Shown here piece after piece: positions 3,383 through 7,912 of a stretch of DNA of 7,912 bases (positions are counted from its first letter, which is position 1; each line of letters starts with the position of its first letter). The notes under the pieces are model-generated. The model was not told the origin of the DNA. It was given only the letters and a program-made list of their open reading frames with translations, and did no database searches. This DNA is from Flavobacterium sp. UBA6203 (GTDB taxonomy: Bacteria > Bacteroidota > Bacteroidia > Flavobacteriales > Flavobacteriaceae): positions 1-7,912 of the forward strand of contig DIST01000057.1 of NCBI GenBank assembly GCA_002421645.1, written 5' to 3'. Both the position numbers and the translations under genes were made by a program.

Positions 3383-4678
3383 CTATTTTTTTTGTTGTTC
3401 GAATTTTCCTTTGTAGCGTTGGTACAATTCGGTATGGTGACTTTCTAAACTGATTTGTCTTCCATCAATAAATGCGAATGAAATGACATTGGTTTTCATA
3501 TCTAAAGCATCGCCTTCAGAAATAAATAAAGTAGCACTTTTACCTGATTCTAACGTTCCGTATTGCTTATTGATTCCTAAAATTTTAGCGGAATTTCCAG
3601 TGATTAATTGTAACGCTTGTTCTTTTGTTAATCCCCAAGCGGCACAAGTTCCGGCATAAAATGGTAAGTTTCTTGTTTGCATACGTTCCATGTCGCCTGC
3701 ATTTTGTAATGCAACTAAAACGCCTGCATCGACTAATAATTTAGCATTTTTGTATGGTAAATTTACATCTTCATCTTCTAATAAAGGTAAATCGTGAACG
3801 CGTTTTAATAAAACAGAAACGTTATTCTCTTTTAATAAATTTGCCACTTTGAATGCGTAATAACCACCAACAATTACCATGTTTTTGATGTTGTTTTTCT
3901 TTTTAAATAAAACGGCATCGATGATTTCTTTTTCACCATTAGCGTTTACAAATAAGGTTTTCTCACCCGATTGTAAACCTTTCATGGCTTCGTAAGGAAT
4001 ATCTTTTTTCGCATTTTTACTTCCCAAATAAGCAAAAGCATTGTGGAAATACTCTTGAATTGCTTTTACTTGTGGATCGTAATTTTTGTTCATTTCAATT
4101 CCGCCTGGTTCTGCCCACCATCCTGCTCTTGAGTAGCTTCTTGGCCAGTTTAAGTGAATTCCGTCATCCGTTTTAATGGAAGCGTCTTCCCAGTTCCAAG
4201 CATCTAACTGAACAATTGATGAAGTACCAGCAATTCTTCCCCCTCGAGGTGTAATTTGTGCTAATAAAACGCCATTTGGACGTGTAGTTTCTACTAATTT
4301 AGATTCAGCGTTATACGCAATAATGCTTCTTACGTGTGGATTGAATTCTCCAATTTCACTTTCGTCATCTGAAGCTCTTACCGCATCAATTTCTACTAAA
4401 CCTAACGTTGAATTTGGTGCAATGAATCCTGGGTAAACATGTTTTCCAGAAGCATCAATCACAATATCGTGTTTGGCTGGTTTCATAACTTTTGCATCAC
4501 CAATATTGGCAATTTTTCCATCAATAATTGAAATTAAACTGTTTTCAATAACTTGTCCGTTTCCTAAATGCGCTTTGGCACCTAAGATTAAAATCGATTT
4601 GCTTTGTTTTGGCGCTGGAGTTTGTTGCGCAAACCCAAACAAAGAAATAATACAAAGAATGAATGTTATTTTTTTCAT
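3383..4678 (-). CDS. Secreted amidohydrolase-fold protein lacking the usual metal ligands
   Basis: A 431-residue protein of the imidazolonepropionase-like amidohydrolase group (COG1228 type). Residues 1-18 form a Sec signal peptide (MKKITFILCIISLFGFAQQ, likely cut after FA), so the protein is exported. The small beta domain typical of the fold is seen at 28-83 (SILILGAKAH, ENSLISIIDGKIANIG, IDASGKHVYPGF) and again at the C-terminus (NSAKILGINKQYGTLESGKSA, then FIDGRQI). The first metal motif is expected right after the PGF at 83-85 as HxH. Here the sequence is IAPNSTLGLVEID, with no histidine. The late catalytic Asp region reads LQNAGDMERMQ, not the usual SDD-type motif. It is therefore probably inactive or works without the classical binuclear centre. 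The same layout recurs in the N-terminal module of the upstream large gene. Together they look like a paired system, now separated by 382 bp holding an insertion. The substrate is unknown. Confidence 0.88.
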   Translation of the reverse strand: MKKITFILCIISLFGFAQQTPAPKQSKSILILGAKAHLGNGQVIENSLISIIDGKIANIGDAKVMKPAKHDIVIDASGKHVYPGFIAPNSTLGLVEIDAVRASDDESEIGEFNPHVRSIIAYNAESKLVETTRPNGVLLAQITPRGGRIAGTSSIVQLDAWNWEDASIKTDDGIHLNWPRSYSRAGWWAEPGGIEMNKNYDPQVKAIQEYFHNAFAYLGSKNAKKDIPYEAMKGLQSGEKTLFVNANGEKEIIDAVLFKKKNNIKNMVIVGGYYAFKVANLLKENNVSVLLKRVHDLPLLEDEDVNLPYKNAKLLVDAGVLVALQNAGDMERMQTRNLPFYAGTCAAWGLTKEQALQLITGNSAKILGINKQYGTLESGKSATLFISEGDALDMKTNVISFAFIDGRQISLESHHTELYQRYKGKFEQQKK

Positions 4679-4711
4679 TTATATATCTTTTTAATTTTAT
4701 TAAAATAGTAA

Positions 4712-4738
4712 AACTAACTAAGTATAACTCTAAACTTA
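4712..4738 (-). promoter_or_regulatory. Weak promoter-like stretch before the 431-aa amidohydrolase
   Basis: The minus strand reads TAAGTTTA (4738-4731), 7 of 8 matches to TAnnTTTG, followed by TACTTAGTTAGTT (4724-4712). The identical 13-mer occurs at 2843-2831, directly after the perfect -7 element of the methyltransferase. Both lie about 27-34 bases before a start codon. No -33 TTG is visible. The remainder of 4679-4747 is AT-rich with no other signal. This could be a leader element or a chance AT-rich match. Confidence 0.25.
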
Positions 4739-4973
4739 ATTAGAAGGATTGTCCCCTTGAGGGGACTTTAGGGGTGTTTTTAATCTTTCAATTTCTTGTT
4801 CCAATGAAAGTAAAACGGAAAATAAATTTTGTTTTACATCATTATCATTAAATCTTAAAAAATGAACACCTAATTTTTCTAATTCACCTTGTCTAAATCT
4901 GTCGTATTCATAGCTCTCTTGCAAAATCTTTTAAATGTGACTTATATGGTATGATTTTATTTTTCATGAACAT
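4736..4973 (-). pseudogene. Remnant of a DUF559 (endonuclease-like) gene with the middle deleted and frame shifted
   Basis: Two pieces of one gene are joined in different frames. The N-terminal piece starts at the ATG at 4973 (or the in-frame ATG at 4967), reads MKNKIIPYKSHLKDFAREL, and stops at TGA (4910-4908). The opening MKNKIIPY..LK..AR is typical of Bacteroidota DUF559 proteins. The C-terminal piece, in another frame, covers about 4924-4736: SYEYDRFRQGELEKLGVHFL then RFNDNDVKQNLFSVL. This matches the end of the DUF559/Vsr-like fold (ELEKLG..FLRF...DV..N...VL). About 60 residues between them are missing, including the region where family members carry the acidic nuclease residues, so no active protein is expected. 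The last residues (TPLKSPQGDN) are encoded by the left repeat arm at 4748-4777. A 62-residue open frame here starts only with TTG and is preceded by an in-frame stop at 4933-4931, so it should not be called as a gene. Confidence 0.75.
4748..4777 (+). repeat. Left 30-bp arm of the inverted repeat
   Basis: This arm matches the reverse complement of 4978-5007 at every base. It contains a near-perfect palindrome, GTCCCCTTGAGGGGAC (4751-4766, all but the central two bases pair), followed by TTTAGGGGTGT, which gives a third C4/G4 block and alternative folds. Similarity ends abruptly after 4777. These G/C-rich blocks stand out against the AT-rich surroundings, as REP-type repeats do. Arms of this CCCCTAAAG/CCCCTCAAGGGG kind are, from memory, frequent in flavobacterial intergenic regions. 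Confidence 0.9.
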
Positions 4974-4977
4974 TTTT

Positions 4978-5007
4978 ACACCCCTAAAGTCCCCTCAAGG
5001 GGACAAT
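4978..5007 (-). repeat. Right 30-bp arm of the inverted repeat
   Basis: Exact inverted copy of 4748-4777, with the same internal palindrome at 4989-5004. In the direction of transcription it comes after the stop of the large amidohydrolase (5063-5061), with a 53-bp AT-rich spacer (5008-5060) that holds nothing else recognisable. The hairpin is followed on the minus strand by only three T, so it would be a weak intrinsic terminator at best. It may still affect read-through between the amidohydrolase genes. Confidence 0.9.
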
Positions 5008-5060
5008 TGTTCGAATGAAATCTATTGTTTTACTTTTTCGTTAGAAATTAAACGTTTTGA

Positions 5061-7912
5061 CTAATTATATTTGTAGTGAGACTCTTTGCAATATTCACCT
5101 AAAGTATCACAGTGGTAGTGACCGTTTTCTTTTTTCTTAGGTAATTGCGTTTTCATTCCTTTGTTTTTAGCGTCTAACATGAAATTGATTAGCTCAGCAC
5201 GTTCTTTTTGAATCAATGCTAAAGTCTCTTTTTCTTTTTCTAAATCGTAGAAAATGATTCCGTCTACTAACGTTTTTTCTGCTCTTGTGTAGATTGATAA
5301 TGGACTATCTGACCAAAGTACCACATCGGCATCTTTACCCACTTTGATACTTCCTACTTTATTATCTACTTGAAGAATTTTGGCTGGATTTAAGGTTACG
5401 AAATTCCAAGCTTCTTCTTCCGTGACGTTACCGTATTTAACCGTTTTAGCAGCTTCTTGATTCAAACGACGTGACATTTCAGCATCATCAGAATTGATAG
5501 AAACTTTTACGCCTTCGTTCATCATAATCGATGCATTGTATGGAATGGCATCGTTAACTTCATATTTATAAGCCCACCAATCTGCAAATGTTGAACCAGC
5601 AACACCATGAGCCGACATTTTATCAGCTAATTTATATCCTTCTAAAATGTGTGTAAACGTTTGAATTTTGAATCCATAACGTTCCGCTAATTTCATCAAC
5701 ATATTGATTTCTGATTGTACGTAAGAGTGACACGTGATGAAACGTTTTTTAGCTAAAATTTCGCCTAAAACTTCCATTTCGATATCAAATCTTGGCATTT
5801 TTTTATTCTTACCTGATTTGTAAGTATCCCATTCGTTTTTGTATTCGATAGCTCTTGTGAAATAATCCTCATAAACTTGTTCAACTCCCATACGAGATTG
5901 CGGGAAACGGTTTCTTGAAAAATCACCCCAATTCGATTGTTTTACATTTTCACCTAAAGCAAATTTGATGTATTTTGGAGCATCTTTTACTAACATTTCA
6001 TCAGGAGCATAACCCCATTTTAATTTGATGAATGCTGCACGACCACCAATTGGATTTGCCGAACCATGTAATAAGTTAGCCGAAGTAACTCCACCCGCTA
6101 AGTTTCTGTAAATATTAATATCGTCTGAATTTACTACATCTTCAATGGTAACTTCTGCTGATGAATTTTGTCCGCCTTCGTTTACACCGTTTGAAATGGC
6201 AATGTGCGAATGTTCATCAATAATTCCAGCAGTTAAATGTTTTCCAGTTCCATCAACTACTTTTGCTCCAGTTGATGGTAAGTTTTTACCAATTTTTACA
6301 ATTTTACCGTTCTGAATTAAAACATCGGTTTCTTTTAGAATTCCTTCTTTTTCACCAGTCCAAACCGTTGTGTTTTTAAATAGAATAGTTTCTTGTTTTG
6401 GTTTTTCAGTCGTTCCAAACGAAATATTTGGATACGTTACAGCATACATTGAAGGAACTTTTGGTTCGTCTTTTTTGTCGTCTTTCTTTTTATCCTCTTT
6501 AACTTCAGTTACTCTTTTTGCAGCTGTCCAAGAAGTTTCGTTTCCGTTTTCTAAAACAGCTTTTCCTTGCATCATATCTTTTACAAATGTTCCTGAAAGT
6601 CTAACGAAGTTCGCTTTTGTAGTATCTTGGTTTTTGATTACTAAATTTACCCAAGGATCATTGAACTGAATTTTTGTTCCAAAGTTGATACTGTCTTTAA
6701 CCGCCTTTGCTTCAAATTTTGAAGTTTCGCCTTCGATTTTTAGTTCAAATTTATGGTTATCAAACACTAAATCATAAGTTCCTCTTATATCAGTTGGATT
6801 GATTTTATCAATGATGTTTCGATTTCCTTGCACCCAGTTTTCTAAGATGTTGCTTTTGTCTTCAAAAATATCACCTGAAACGATGATGAAGTTCGCTAAT
6901 TTTCCTTTTGAAATAGAACCTACTTTATCAAATTGATTGACCAATTTCGCAGGATTTTCTGTTAAGGCTAATAACGCTTTGTCTTTTGGTAAACCATATA
7001 AAATGGCTTTTCTTAAGTTTGATAAGAACGATTTTGTTTCTTTTAAATCAGCTGTTGAAAGTACAAAAGGTACATTATTCTCAGCCAAAATTTTCAAGTT
7101 GAATGGTGCTTGATTCCAAAATTTCATATCGCTCAAGCTTACTTGTTGCGCTAAATAGGGGTCAGAAACATCATAAGCGTCTGGAAAATTCAATGGAATA
7201 ATAAAAGTAGCTCCTGATTTTTTAATTTCATCGATGCGTTCAAATTCGTTTCCACTTCCTTTAATTAGATATTTTACTCCGAATTCATCTCCTAATTTAT
7301 CTGCTCTTAATGCATTTAATTTATCACCAGCATTGAAGATTTGCAATAAAGATTTGTTAGCATTGAAAGCTTCTAAAGATAAGTCTTTATTGGTTGCATT
7401 TCCTTGTGCATACCATTTTGCATCATGGAATACTTGACGAATTAAAGCCATACTTCCCATCATAGAAGAAGGATAACTTTGTTTAGTAAATTTACTTATG
7501 CTGAATGTAAAATGTTGTGAAATTTTGTCTTTTACAATTCTATCAGCGTTAGTACCAAAGTCGTTTAAGGTCCAAAGTAAACCGGTTCCAGCAATAACAC
7601 CGTCATTATGGTGACTTAAAACCGTTCCAAAACCAGCTTCTCTTAAATTTCCTGCTGCTTTTGAATCGTAGCTTAAGTTTTCATACGCATTGTATTCTGG
7701 TTTGATGTGGTCGTTCCAATAATACCCTTCACGATTGGTGTCGTATTGAGGAGTGAAGTTACCATTTGGTCTTGGAGTAGGCTTGTTAATTCCGAATTCA
7801 CTATACAATTCGATGAATGAAGGATAAATTGTTTTTCCTGTAGCATCAATTATGTTGGTTCCTTTTGGAATTACAACATTGGTTCCTACTTCTACAATTT
7901 TGTTTTCTTTGA
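5061..7912 (-). CDS. Large two-module amidohydrolase, N-terminus cut by window edge
   Basis: The frame is open from the window edge to the TAG at 5063-5061: 949 residues here, numbered from the first full codon. A TTG at 7808 is not the real start, because 34 in-frame codons upstream (KIVEVGTNVVIPKG, then TIYPSFIELYSEFG) are clearly part of the fold. A signal peptide is expected just outside. Module A (1 to about 330) has the amidohydrolase frame but ELYSEFG where HxH belongs. A beta-rich stretch (about 340-465) and a Lys/Asp-rich linker (about 469-487, EVKEDKKKDDKKDEPK) follow. Module B (about 490-905) keeps the ligands: H567-S-H569 after GIIDE, H728 (ITCHSY), H754 (FTHILEGYK) and the D808 region (INSDDAE). 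It is thus the probable metal-dependent hydrolase domain, COG1228 type, with unknown substrate (dipeptides or other cyclic or linear amides are options in this group). The tail carries an HxHC-x7-C-x3-H pattern. Confidence 0.92.
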   Translation of the reverse strand, partial: KENKIVEVGTNVVIPKGTNIIDATGKTIYPSFIELYSEFGINKPTPRPNGNFTPQYDTNREGYYWNDHIKPEYNAYENLSYDSKAAGNLREAGFGTVLSHHNDGVIAGTGLLWTLNDFGTNADRIVKDKISQHFTFSISKFTKQSYPSSMMGSMALIRQVFHDAKWYAQGNATNKDLSLEAFNANKSLLQIFNAGDKLNALRADKLGDEFGVKYLIKGSGNEFERIDEIKKSGATFIIPLNFPDAYDVSDPYLAQQVSLSDMKFWNQAPFNLKILAENNVPFVLSTADLKETKSFLSNLRKAILYGLPKDKALLALTENPAKLVNQFDKVGSISKGKLANFIIVSGDIFEDKSNILENWVQGNRNIIDKINPTDIRGTYDLVFDNHKFELKIEGETSKFEAKAVKDSINFGTKIQFNDPWVNLVIKNQDTTKANFVRLSGTFVKDMMQGKAVLENGNETSWTAAKRVTEVKEDKKKDDKKDEPKVPSMYAVTYPNISFGTTEKPKQETILFKNTTVWTGEKEGILKETDVLIQNGKIVKIGKNLPSTGAKVVDGTGKHLTAGIIDEHSHIAISNGVNEGGQNSSAEVTIEDVVNSDDINIYRNLAGGVTSANLLHGSANPIGGRAAFIKLKWGYAPDEMLVKDAPKYIKFALGENVKQSNWGDFSRNRFPQSRMGVEQVYEDYFTRAIEYKNEWDTYKSGKNKKMPRFDIEMEVLGEILAKKRFITCHSYVQSEINMLMKLAERYGFKIQTFTHILEGYKLADKMSAHGVAGSTFADWWAYKYEVNDAIPYNASIMMNEGVKVSINSDDAEMSRRLNQEAAKTVKYGNVTEEEAWNFVTLNPAKILQVDNKVGSIKVGKDADVVLWSDSPLSIYTRAEKTLVDGIIFYDLEKEKETLALIQKERAELINFMLDAKNKGMKTQLPKKKENGHYHCDTLGEYCKESHYKYN

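Follow-up and report, generated by a model that had tools for sequence, protein, structure and literature searches.

A broken DUF559 gene between inverted palindromic arms in Flavobacterium, the probable relic of a mobile unit with homing-like traits

What is a broken DUF559 gene doing between two perfect inverted repeats? The question is raised by a 7,912-nt stretch of Flavobacterium sp. UBA6203 (contig DIST01000057.1), called the window below, in which two amidohydrolase-type genes stand in tandem on the minus strand with a short element between them (Table 1). On balance, we take this spot to be a broken and decayed copy of an apparently mobile unit composed of a palindromic arm, a DUF559 gene and an inverted palindromic arm. 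We somewhat favour the view that the unit is selfish and that its intact form spreads mainly in the manner of a homing endonuclease gene, with arms like repetitive extragenic palindromes (REPs) as its ends.

The two arms are identical over all 30 nt, just as a preliminary description of this DNA had stated. The longest exact inverted repeat with partners at most 600 nt apart measures 30 nt in the window; in 100 random sequences having the dinucleotide transitions of the window, it never exceeded 17 nt. Each arm consists of a hairpin, GTCCCC-TTGA-GGGGAC, followed toward the inside by TTTAGGGGTGT. The geometry described earlier is also seen: on the minus strand, the ATG at 4973 begins four bases past the end of one arm (homologues start at the next ATG, 4967), and the other arm codes for TPLKSPQGDN close to the C-terminal end of the DUF559 frame. 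The C-terminal remnant scores 19.9 bits against PF04480, just under the cut-off of 20.6, and the intact copy L001 matches the family with 89.8 bits. The identification as a gene remnant rests further on a full-length protein (P0001), which is near-identical to it and whose C-terminal residues TPLKSPQGDN are likewise arm-coded. Aligned to L001, the break is an internal deletion of ~170 nt accompanied by a frame change. The preliminary description had confined the element to 4748..5007; the arms and the remnant are borne out, but the insertion itself is larger, extending in comparison with empty alleles from ~4679 to ~5059 and including AT-rich outer flanks. Another DUF559 protein (P0003) combines the C-terminal half and arm of the window with a different N-terminal half, a mosaic that perhaps arose by recombination within the gene.

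The link between DUF559 genes and arms is general and strongly supported. A DUF559 alignment was scanned over genome contigs, yielding 331 stretches with coding sequence for a relative; the 80 best made up the first set. An inverted repeat with a score of at least 18 spans the two sides of the gene at 59 of these 80 loci, versus 17 of 5,787 shifted control windows from the same loci, and a comparison with somewhat altered windows agreed. The second set was chosen regardless of arms from PF04480 matches in 199 Flavobacteriaceae genomes, taking from each of 71 regions one gene with a near-full-length match and a frame below 500 aa. It omits larger frames, short partial matches and the genomes G001 and G016, already represented in the first set, and it shares at least three loci with that set (L170=L039, L187=L016 and L188=L032). 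Here, 37 of the 71 loci exceed all control windows of their own locus, and at the threshold of 18 the repeat is found around 23 of 64 standalone DUF559 genes versus 5 of 2,163 controls. Intact DUF559 genes are thus flanked by arms far above chance, as had been predicted. None of the seven frames longer than 230 aa reaches this threshold; six are DUF559-HemD fusions and the seventh (L187) is fused to PALP, and its arms escaped detection since the frame end was extended. Among 50 loci with window-type arms near DUF559, an inward-pointing arm is present on both sides in 41 (nine of them with an outward one in addition), and one has only outward arms, on both sides. The link reaches plasmids of Cyanobacteria, Deinococcus and Alphaproteobacteria: from 33 PLSDB records, 11 were fetched and 10 analysed (L313, with DUF559 inside a 4.9-kb frame, was excluded), and eight of the 10 loci lie above all local controls, the flanking repeats of L310 and L312 being not above theirs. 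Some of the plasmid DUF559 genes sit within groups of genes for a single pathway, namely between sufB and sufC (L316), between paaD and paaZ (L315) and among hpa genes (L311 and L314).

Filled and empty alleles, which the preliminary description had proposed to look for, were found at the window site and at two others. At the window site, an intact DUF559 gene with the same arms occurs in Flavobacterium sp. LMO8 (L001) and in strain BAL38 (L002), and in at least five relatives (G248, G237, G257, G238 and G264) the site is empty and the amidohydrolase genes lie close together. In a 4.1-kb tree of both flanking genes, the window is sister to the empty G248 (94.9%) and L001 is sister to the empty G237 (92.1%), with L002 outside. 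The arms and gene of L001 and L002 are 96.5% identical (427 nt), versus 86.7% for the flanking genes. Nineteen sites in ~4 kb are shared by the three filled alleles and set them apart from the two empty ones; of these, six fall at 4651-4692, where some (at 4679-4692) are within gapped alignment, and two at 5064-5067. By comparison, 70 sites pair the window with G248, in line with the gene tree. These patterns suggest that the element was transferred here together with short flanks.

The second site lies before a gene for a pyridoxal phosphate (PLP)-dependent enzyme (PALP, PF00291). In the genus of G003 (Winogradskyella), 54 of 60 genomes have this gene at the threshold, 12 with a long frame (444-468 aa) and 42 with a short one (311-334 aa); 11 of the long frames were read and that of G325 was judged by length only, and an out-of-frame unit would be scored among the short frames. 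Short alleles of the simplest form have the TTG start immediately after the TAA of the upstream gene. The order in the filled allele of L013 is TAA, 18 nt, left arm ... GGGGACAAT and then TTG. No extra bases follow the right arm in L015 and L016 either, and other copies have at least 9. For L003 and L012, the surroundings are 98.8, 94.8 and 92.3% alike and DUF559 only 79.0%; for L003 and L006, DUF559 is 96.0% alike and the surroundings 86.2, 84.3 and 86.9%. A PALP tree with 28 rows was built from 11 filled alleles and 17 of the 42 that are short; on it, the occupied state must change 8 times, about as often as with shuffled labels (8.9), and strongly supported branches force 5 changes. The intergenic spot upstream of PALP seems to attract repeats in general: in relatives that lack DUF559 at this place, it carries quite unlike short repeats, of the GTCATTCCTGCGAAGGCAGGAATC type or the CGTCAGTTCGAGTG...TATCGAGAAC type (L320, L322, L323, L329, L333; L324-L327, L334, L338).

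The third site is the rnpA gene. In the group of G017, 6 of 60 genomes have long RnpA frames, of which five were read and that of G380 was judged only by its length. Between L025 and L027, DUF559 is 92.2% alike, versus 79.6-82.9% for the surroundings, and between L022 and L023 it is 96.5% alike, versus 88.6-91.2%. From 30 loci fetched at this site, 25 were readable and four of them fused; the right arm is kept at the RnpA N-terminus in eight of the 21 unfused ones, and one of these eight (L354) has a DUF559-like tail before the arm, comparable to the internal deletion of the window. At the PALP and RnpA sites, then, DUF559 has a history different from that of its flanks in some species pairs. 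Same-site horizontal spread independent of the flanks, a trait of homing, is seen in L003-L006-L012 and L025-L027.

Many copies have no stop within the unit, and their frame continues across the right arm, which codes for TPLKSPQGDN, and on into the target DNA; thus, insertion beside or inside genes can give in-frame fusions. The window itself shows no such fusion, and the preliminary description did not mention any. Frames of at least 170 aa with an N-terminal DUF559 occur at 33 of the 151 loci of both sets. They include 15 PLP-dependent enzyme fusions (14 distinct loci; 440-449 aa) in Winogradskyella and relatives, nine RnpA fusions (L019, L021, L022, L023, L025, L027, L040, L051 and L053), one CutC fusion (L026), six HemD fusions (L119, L120, L122, L126, L127 and L136, all with placed HEM4 matches) and a long frame with an extension of uncertain identity (L042). 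The remaining one is L067, where DUF559 lies in frame inside chorismate synthase (AroC), forming a single frame of 662 aa, and the two AroC pieces are the sole AroC matches in that genome. Pfam confirmed example fusions for PALP, RnpA, CutC and AroC. All 10 genomes tested for RnpA have a single match, which lies inside the fusion frame in nine, although the assemblies may be incomplete; in the tenth, G292, the frame is 159 aa long and still includes the arm. The HemD fusions were rejected as essential copies: a second HemD match exists in each of the six genomes, so no argument about essentiality can be drawn from them. The DUF559-HemD linkers, such as LTPNPSPGGRGE, look like worn arm-coded peptides.

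How might such a unit spread? The nearest structure to the predicted DUF559 fold is another DUF559 protein and the next is the homing endonuclease I-Bth0305I, which we take to be a member of the EDxHD family; by predicted structure, DUF559 would thus share the fold of a homing-family nuclease. In the mechanism that we prefer, DUF559 would be a small Vsr-like PD-(D/E)XK endonuclease. It would make a break or a nick in the unoccupied allele, or in DNA close to it, and repair would copy the unit into that allele, in many cases along with a little of the flank. Internal deletion, as in the window, would cause occupied sites to decay, after which they would be invaded again. The arms would form the ends of the unit and, by themselves, would spread as short REP-like repeats. 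The frame running through the right arm could create a fusion when the unit lands next to or inside a gene. More tentatively, we propose a bacterial class of selfish elements that occurs in several phyla. Its Vsr-like homing endonuclease would lie between clade-specific palindromes, would also spread these through the genome and would have an open-ended frame that repeatedly fuses to essential genes; where the partner is the only RNase P protein of a species, the result would be a nuclease fusion that is hard to lose.

The alternative that survives best, though we think it unlikely, is that the unit works like a REPtron (a REP together with its RAYT/TnpAREP, the REP-associated tyrosine transposase), the hairpin arms being the direct substrate of DUF559. 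The enzyme would cut out or copy the DNA that the arms enclose, possibly in single-stranded form, and insert it at new sites, in the way proposed for RAYTs and their REPs. The relation between arms and enzymes speaks for this. The arms were assigned to classes according to the tail, the sequence following the hairpin (GGGGTGT, GGGGTGGG, GGGGGATGT, GGAGGATGT, GGGGTGTG and one more). The class is the same on both sides at 58 of 161 loci and differs at three (L071, L153 and L183), the other 100 lacking a class on one or both sides; it is thus equal at 58 of the 61 loci classed on both sides. On a tree of 57 proteins, with one single-member class omitted, the arm class changes 7 times versus 21.5 with shuffled labels and was never as low in 200 shuffles, a result inflated by near relatives. 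Arm class mostly follows the DUF559 clade, and the two DUF559 genes of Pontibacter amylolyticus (L033 and L066) each have their own class. The clustering of the GGGGGATGT (GGAT) class is unclear, however, its 5 changes being matched in 17 of 500 shuffles, and the GGGGTGTG class has only two rows and is uninformative. Tail and stem have similar G-runs in several classes (GGGG/GGGG, GGGGG/GGGGG and GGAGG/GGAGG), so that the C side of the hairpin could possibly pair, as judged by eye, with either run in an alternative structure.

Scattered solitary arms also fit direct action on the arms. A 27-nt arm pattern with at most three mismatches occurs in 21 of the 29 genomes of the studied loci and the reversed control pattern in none; G009 and G017 have two arms each, both around DUF559. 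In the Flavobacteriaceae, a 25-nt pattern with two mismatches is found in 18 of the 199 genomes. A near-full-length DUF559 with a frame below 500 aa is present in 16 of these 18 versus 35 of the 181 arm-free genomes (Fisher p = 5e-9), and 11 of the 16 have the window type as judged by tails. At L196, a lone arm with 17 nt of outer flank forms a ~49-nt insertion directly before the start of murG (named by reading), and four relatives (G248, G257, G237 and G002) have the empty sequence. The flank resembles one at L009, where a comparable outer flank precedes two adjacent arms, as if arm and flank were copied as one piece. L240 was rejected as a clean solitary-arm insertion, the outgroup G257 having a spacer of similar length, and the solitary arms of Pontibacter G024 (L288-L299) and G096 (L300-L302) are not simple 30-nt units; they are embedded in longer conserved sequence and are probably part of larger repeats. 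When 48 loci were roughly compared with open reading frames, solitary arms showed no consistent preference for start codons. Tandem arrays of arms in the same orientation, ~100 to several hundred nt apart, lie inside longer repeated units in G161 (L190-L194), where one strand carries 24 of the 26 arm matches. Back-to-back pairs ~30 nt apart, resembling REP dimers, occur at L281 and L307 (G184 and G195).

Against direct action on the arms, the three sites exhibit exchange or gain and loss in place, not transposition. G146 and G184 have arms, 15 of them in G184, and no near-full-length DUF559 match. PD-(D/E)XK enzymes form, to our knowledge, no covalent DNA intermediate, and joining would thus need host enzymes. 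The preliminary description had put DUF559 forward as a possible agent that spreads the repeats in the way of a RAYT. The link to the arms stands; RAYT-like action is possible, and homing-like copying fits at least as well and explains more of the site-level data.

Several observations weigh against homing-like spread. Scores below 18 were obtained for 21 of the 80 genes of the first set and 41 of the 64 of the second. Arms mostly without DUF559 had been named beforehand as a difficulty, and here the census cuts both ways: to the enrichment given above must be opposed G024, in which two of 55 arms (C3:113205 and C3:113685) bracket L049, the DUF559 gene with which the arms were compared, and the seven of 18 arm-bearing Flavobacteriaceae genomes in which no window-type DUF559 was found, including G081, G088, G096, G100 and G195, whose DUF559 genes are only of other types by their tails. 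Homing gives no explanation for solitary arms in arm-rich genomes, and we know of no homing endonuclease gene with palindromic arms. The left boundary varies: the PALP copies mostly have 16-18 extra nt, but also 7, 10, 32, 35 or 37 (counted by script). On the right side there are 0, 9 or more, and the outer flanks of the window measure ~52 and 69 nt. Inspection of the solitary-arm and PALP junctions by eye revealed no target-site duplication. Few pairs are informative, most of the 55 pairs at the PALP site being 75-85% alike in all segments. Flank-independent spread is not seen in L007-L014, which are concordant (86.1-87.9%), nor in L051-L053, where the order is opposite (DUF559 89.9% versus 93.2-93.6% for the surroundings). 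Discordance demonstrates transfer, not its cause; ordinary homologous recombination could also carry the element from one species to another at a site that both have, and a single old insertion with two losses could also underlie the window site. Finally, we infer nuclease activity, copying by repair and the movement of arms by DUF559 from these patterns.

If plain recombination were the whole story, DUF559 would be a resident Vsr-like mismatch-repair gene, the hairpins terminators or mRNA structures, and the discordance a product of natural transformation. Strong purifying selection on DUF559 agrees with such a role, as does the DUF559-containing VsrA of Caulobacter, which is reported as a predicted mismatch-repair endonuclease required for the SOS response in a methyltransferase mutant (PMC12907096). 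We nevertheless consider this reading very improbable, given the identical inverted arms on both sides that also occur alone elsewhere, the insertions with empty relatives, the in-frame insertion inside AroC and the patchy distribution of PF04480, of which a match of any kind is found in 89 of 199 Flavobacteriaceae genomes.

Least probable of all is that Y1 (HUH) transposases of the RAYT type move the REP-like arms and bracket an unrelated DUF559 by chance: atypical secondary structures are reported to flank Bacteroidetes TnpAREP subclass 2.6 genes (PMC6006769), and 15 of the 17 genomes searched have Y1 matches, but none of 29 Y1 matches in 10 genomes is within 5 kb of any arm among those listed (the closest is at 10.1 kb), the arm-bearing G009 and G195 have no Y1 match, and the window arms lack the GT[AG]G foot. 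The comparison omits eight Y1 matches of G003, G006, G007, G012 and G161 and covers 20 of the 27 arms of G104; within it, the earlier suggestion of a DUF559 gene in place of a Y1 transposase is upheld. Terminators alone and chance were, like this passenger scenario, set aside as less likely.

Table 1. Features in and around the insertion in the window
Feature	Positions	Strand	Basis
Arm A, outer hairpin and TTTAGGGGTGT; its complement codes for the DUF559 C-terminal TPLKSPQGDN	4748..4777	+	sequence
Arm B, inverted match of arm A, directly upstream of the DUF559 start	4978..5007	-	sequence
DUF559 N-terminal fragment, MFMKNKIIPYKSHLKDFAREL then stop	4908..4973	-	frame 0 of reverse complement
DUF559 C-terminal fragment in another frame, through arm A; stop from flanking DNA	4736..4924	-	reading frame, Pfam
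Internal deletion of ~170 nt, approximate position versus intact L001	4911..4918	-	alignment
AT-rich outer flank, filled alleles only (absent from L200, L201 and L202)	4679..4747	.	alignment
Opposite AT-rich outer flank, filled alleles only	5008..5059	.	alignment
Amidohydrolase gene (PF07969), downstream of the insertion	3383..4678	-	Pfam
Amidohydrolase-like gene (named by reading), upstream of the insertion	5061..7910	-	reading frame

If homing-like spread is correct, the GC-rich palindromic repeats of Bacteroidota and of cyanobacterial, Deinococcus and alphaproteobacterial plasmids would gain a partner enzyme, and DUF559, a widespread family labelled 'unknown function' in Pfam, a mobile role. 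The PALP and RnpA sites, where the unit comes and goes, would serve as natural replicates of a cycle of invasion and decay, and the RnpA fusion would offer a directly testable case of how a selfish gene could become hard to lose. In the openly licensed literature, we found no publication tying DUF559 to repetitive extragenic palindromes or inverted repeats, none on a DUF559-RnpA fusion and none connecting very short patch repair with palindromic, miniature or transposable elements.

How does the unit compare with known systems? Like REPtrons, it has a small nuclease gene between inverted palindromic repeats that recur elsewhere, also in solitary form, and whose type largely tracks the enzyme clade. 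Unlike them, it encodes a PF04480 protein with a Vsr-like fold in place of a Y1 HUH transposase, and in the window arms the bases 5' of the GTCCCC stem are ATT, without the GT[AG]G foot. Rickettsial palindromic elements insert in frame. These and the intragenic REPs resemble the unit in being short palindromic repeats within genes, but the CGTC class of intragenic REPs is reported to have no associated transposase gene, whereas the DUF559 unit carries its gene (PMC3733652). As in miniature inverted-repeat transposable elements, the window copy is internally deleted with intact ends, although the unit has no DDE transposase and no target-site duplication was seen by eye. From Vsr endonuclease and the Caulobacter VsrA it is set apart by its arms, its gain and loss and its fusions. 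With homing endonuclease genes it shares the predicted fold and, at some sites, the mode of spread. It differs from them in having palindromic arms that also occur alone, and no self-splicing intron or intein was noticed here, although no search aimed at them was made. The DUF559 frames are plain fusions or free-standing, and the unit fuses at gene starts where a homing endonuclease gene would be removed seamlessly.
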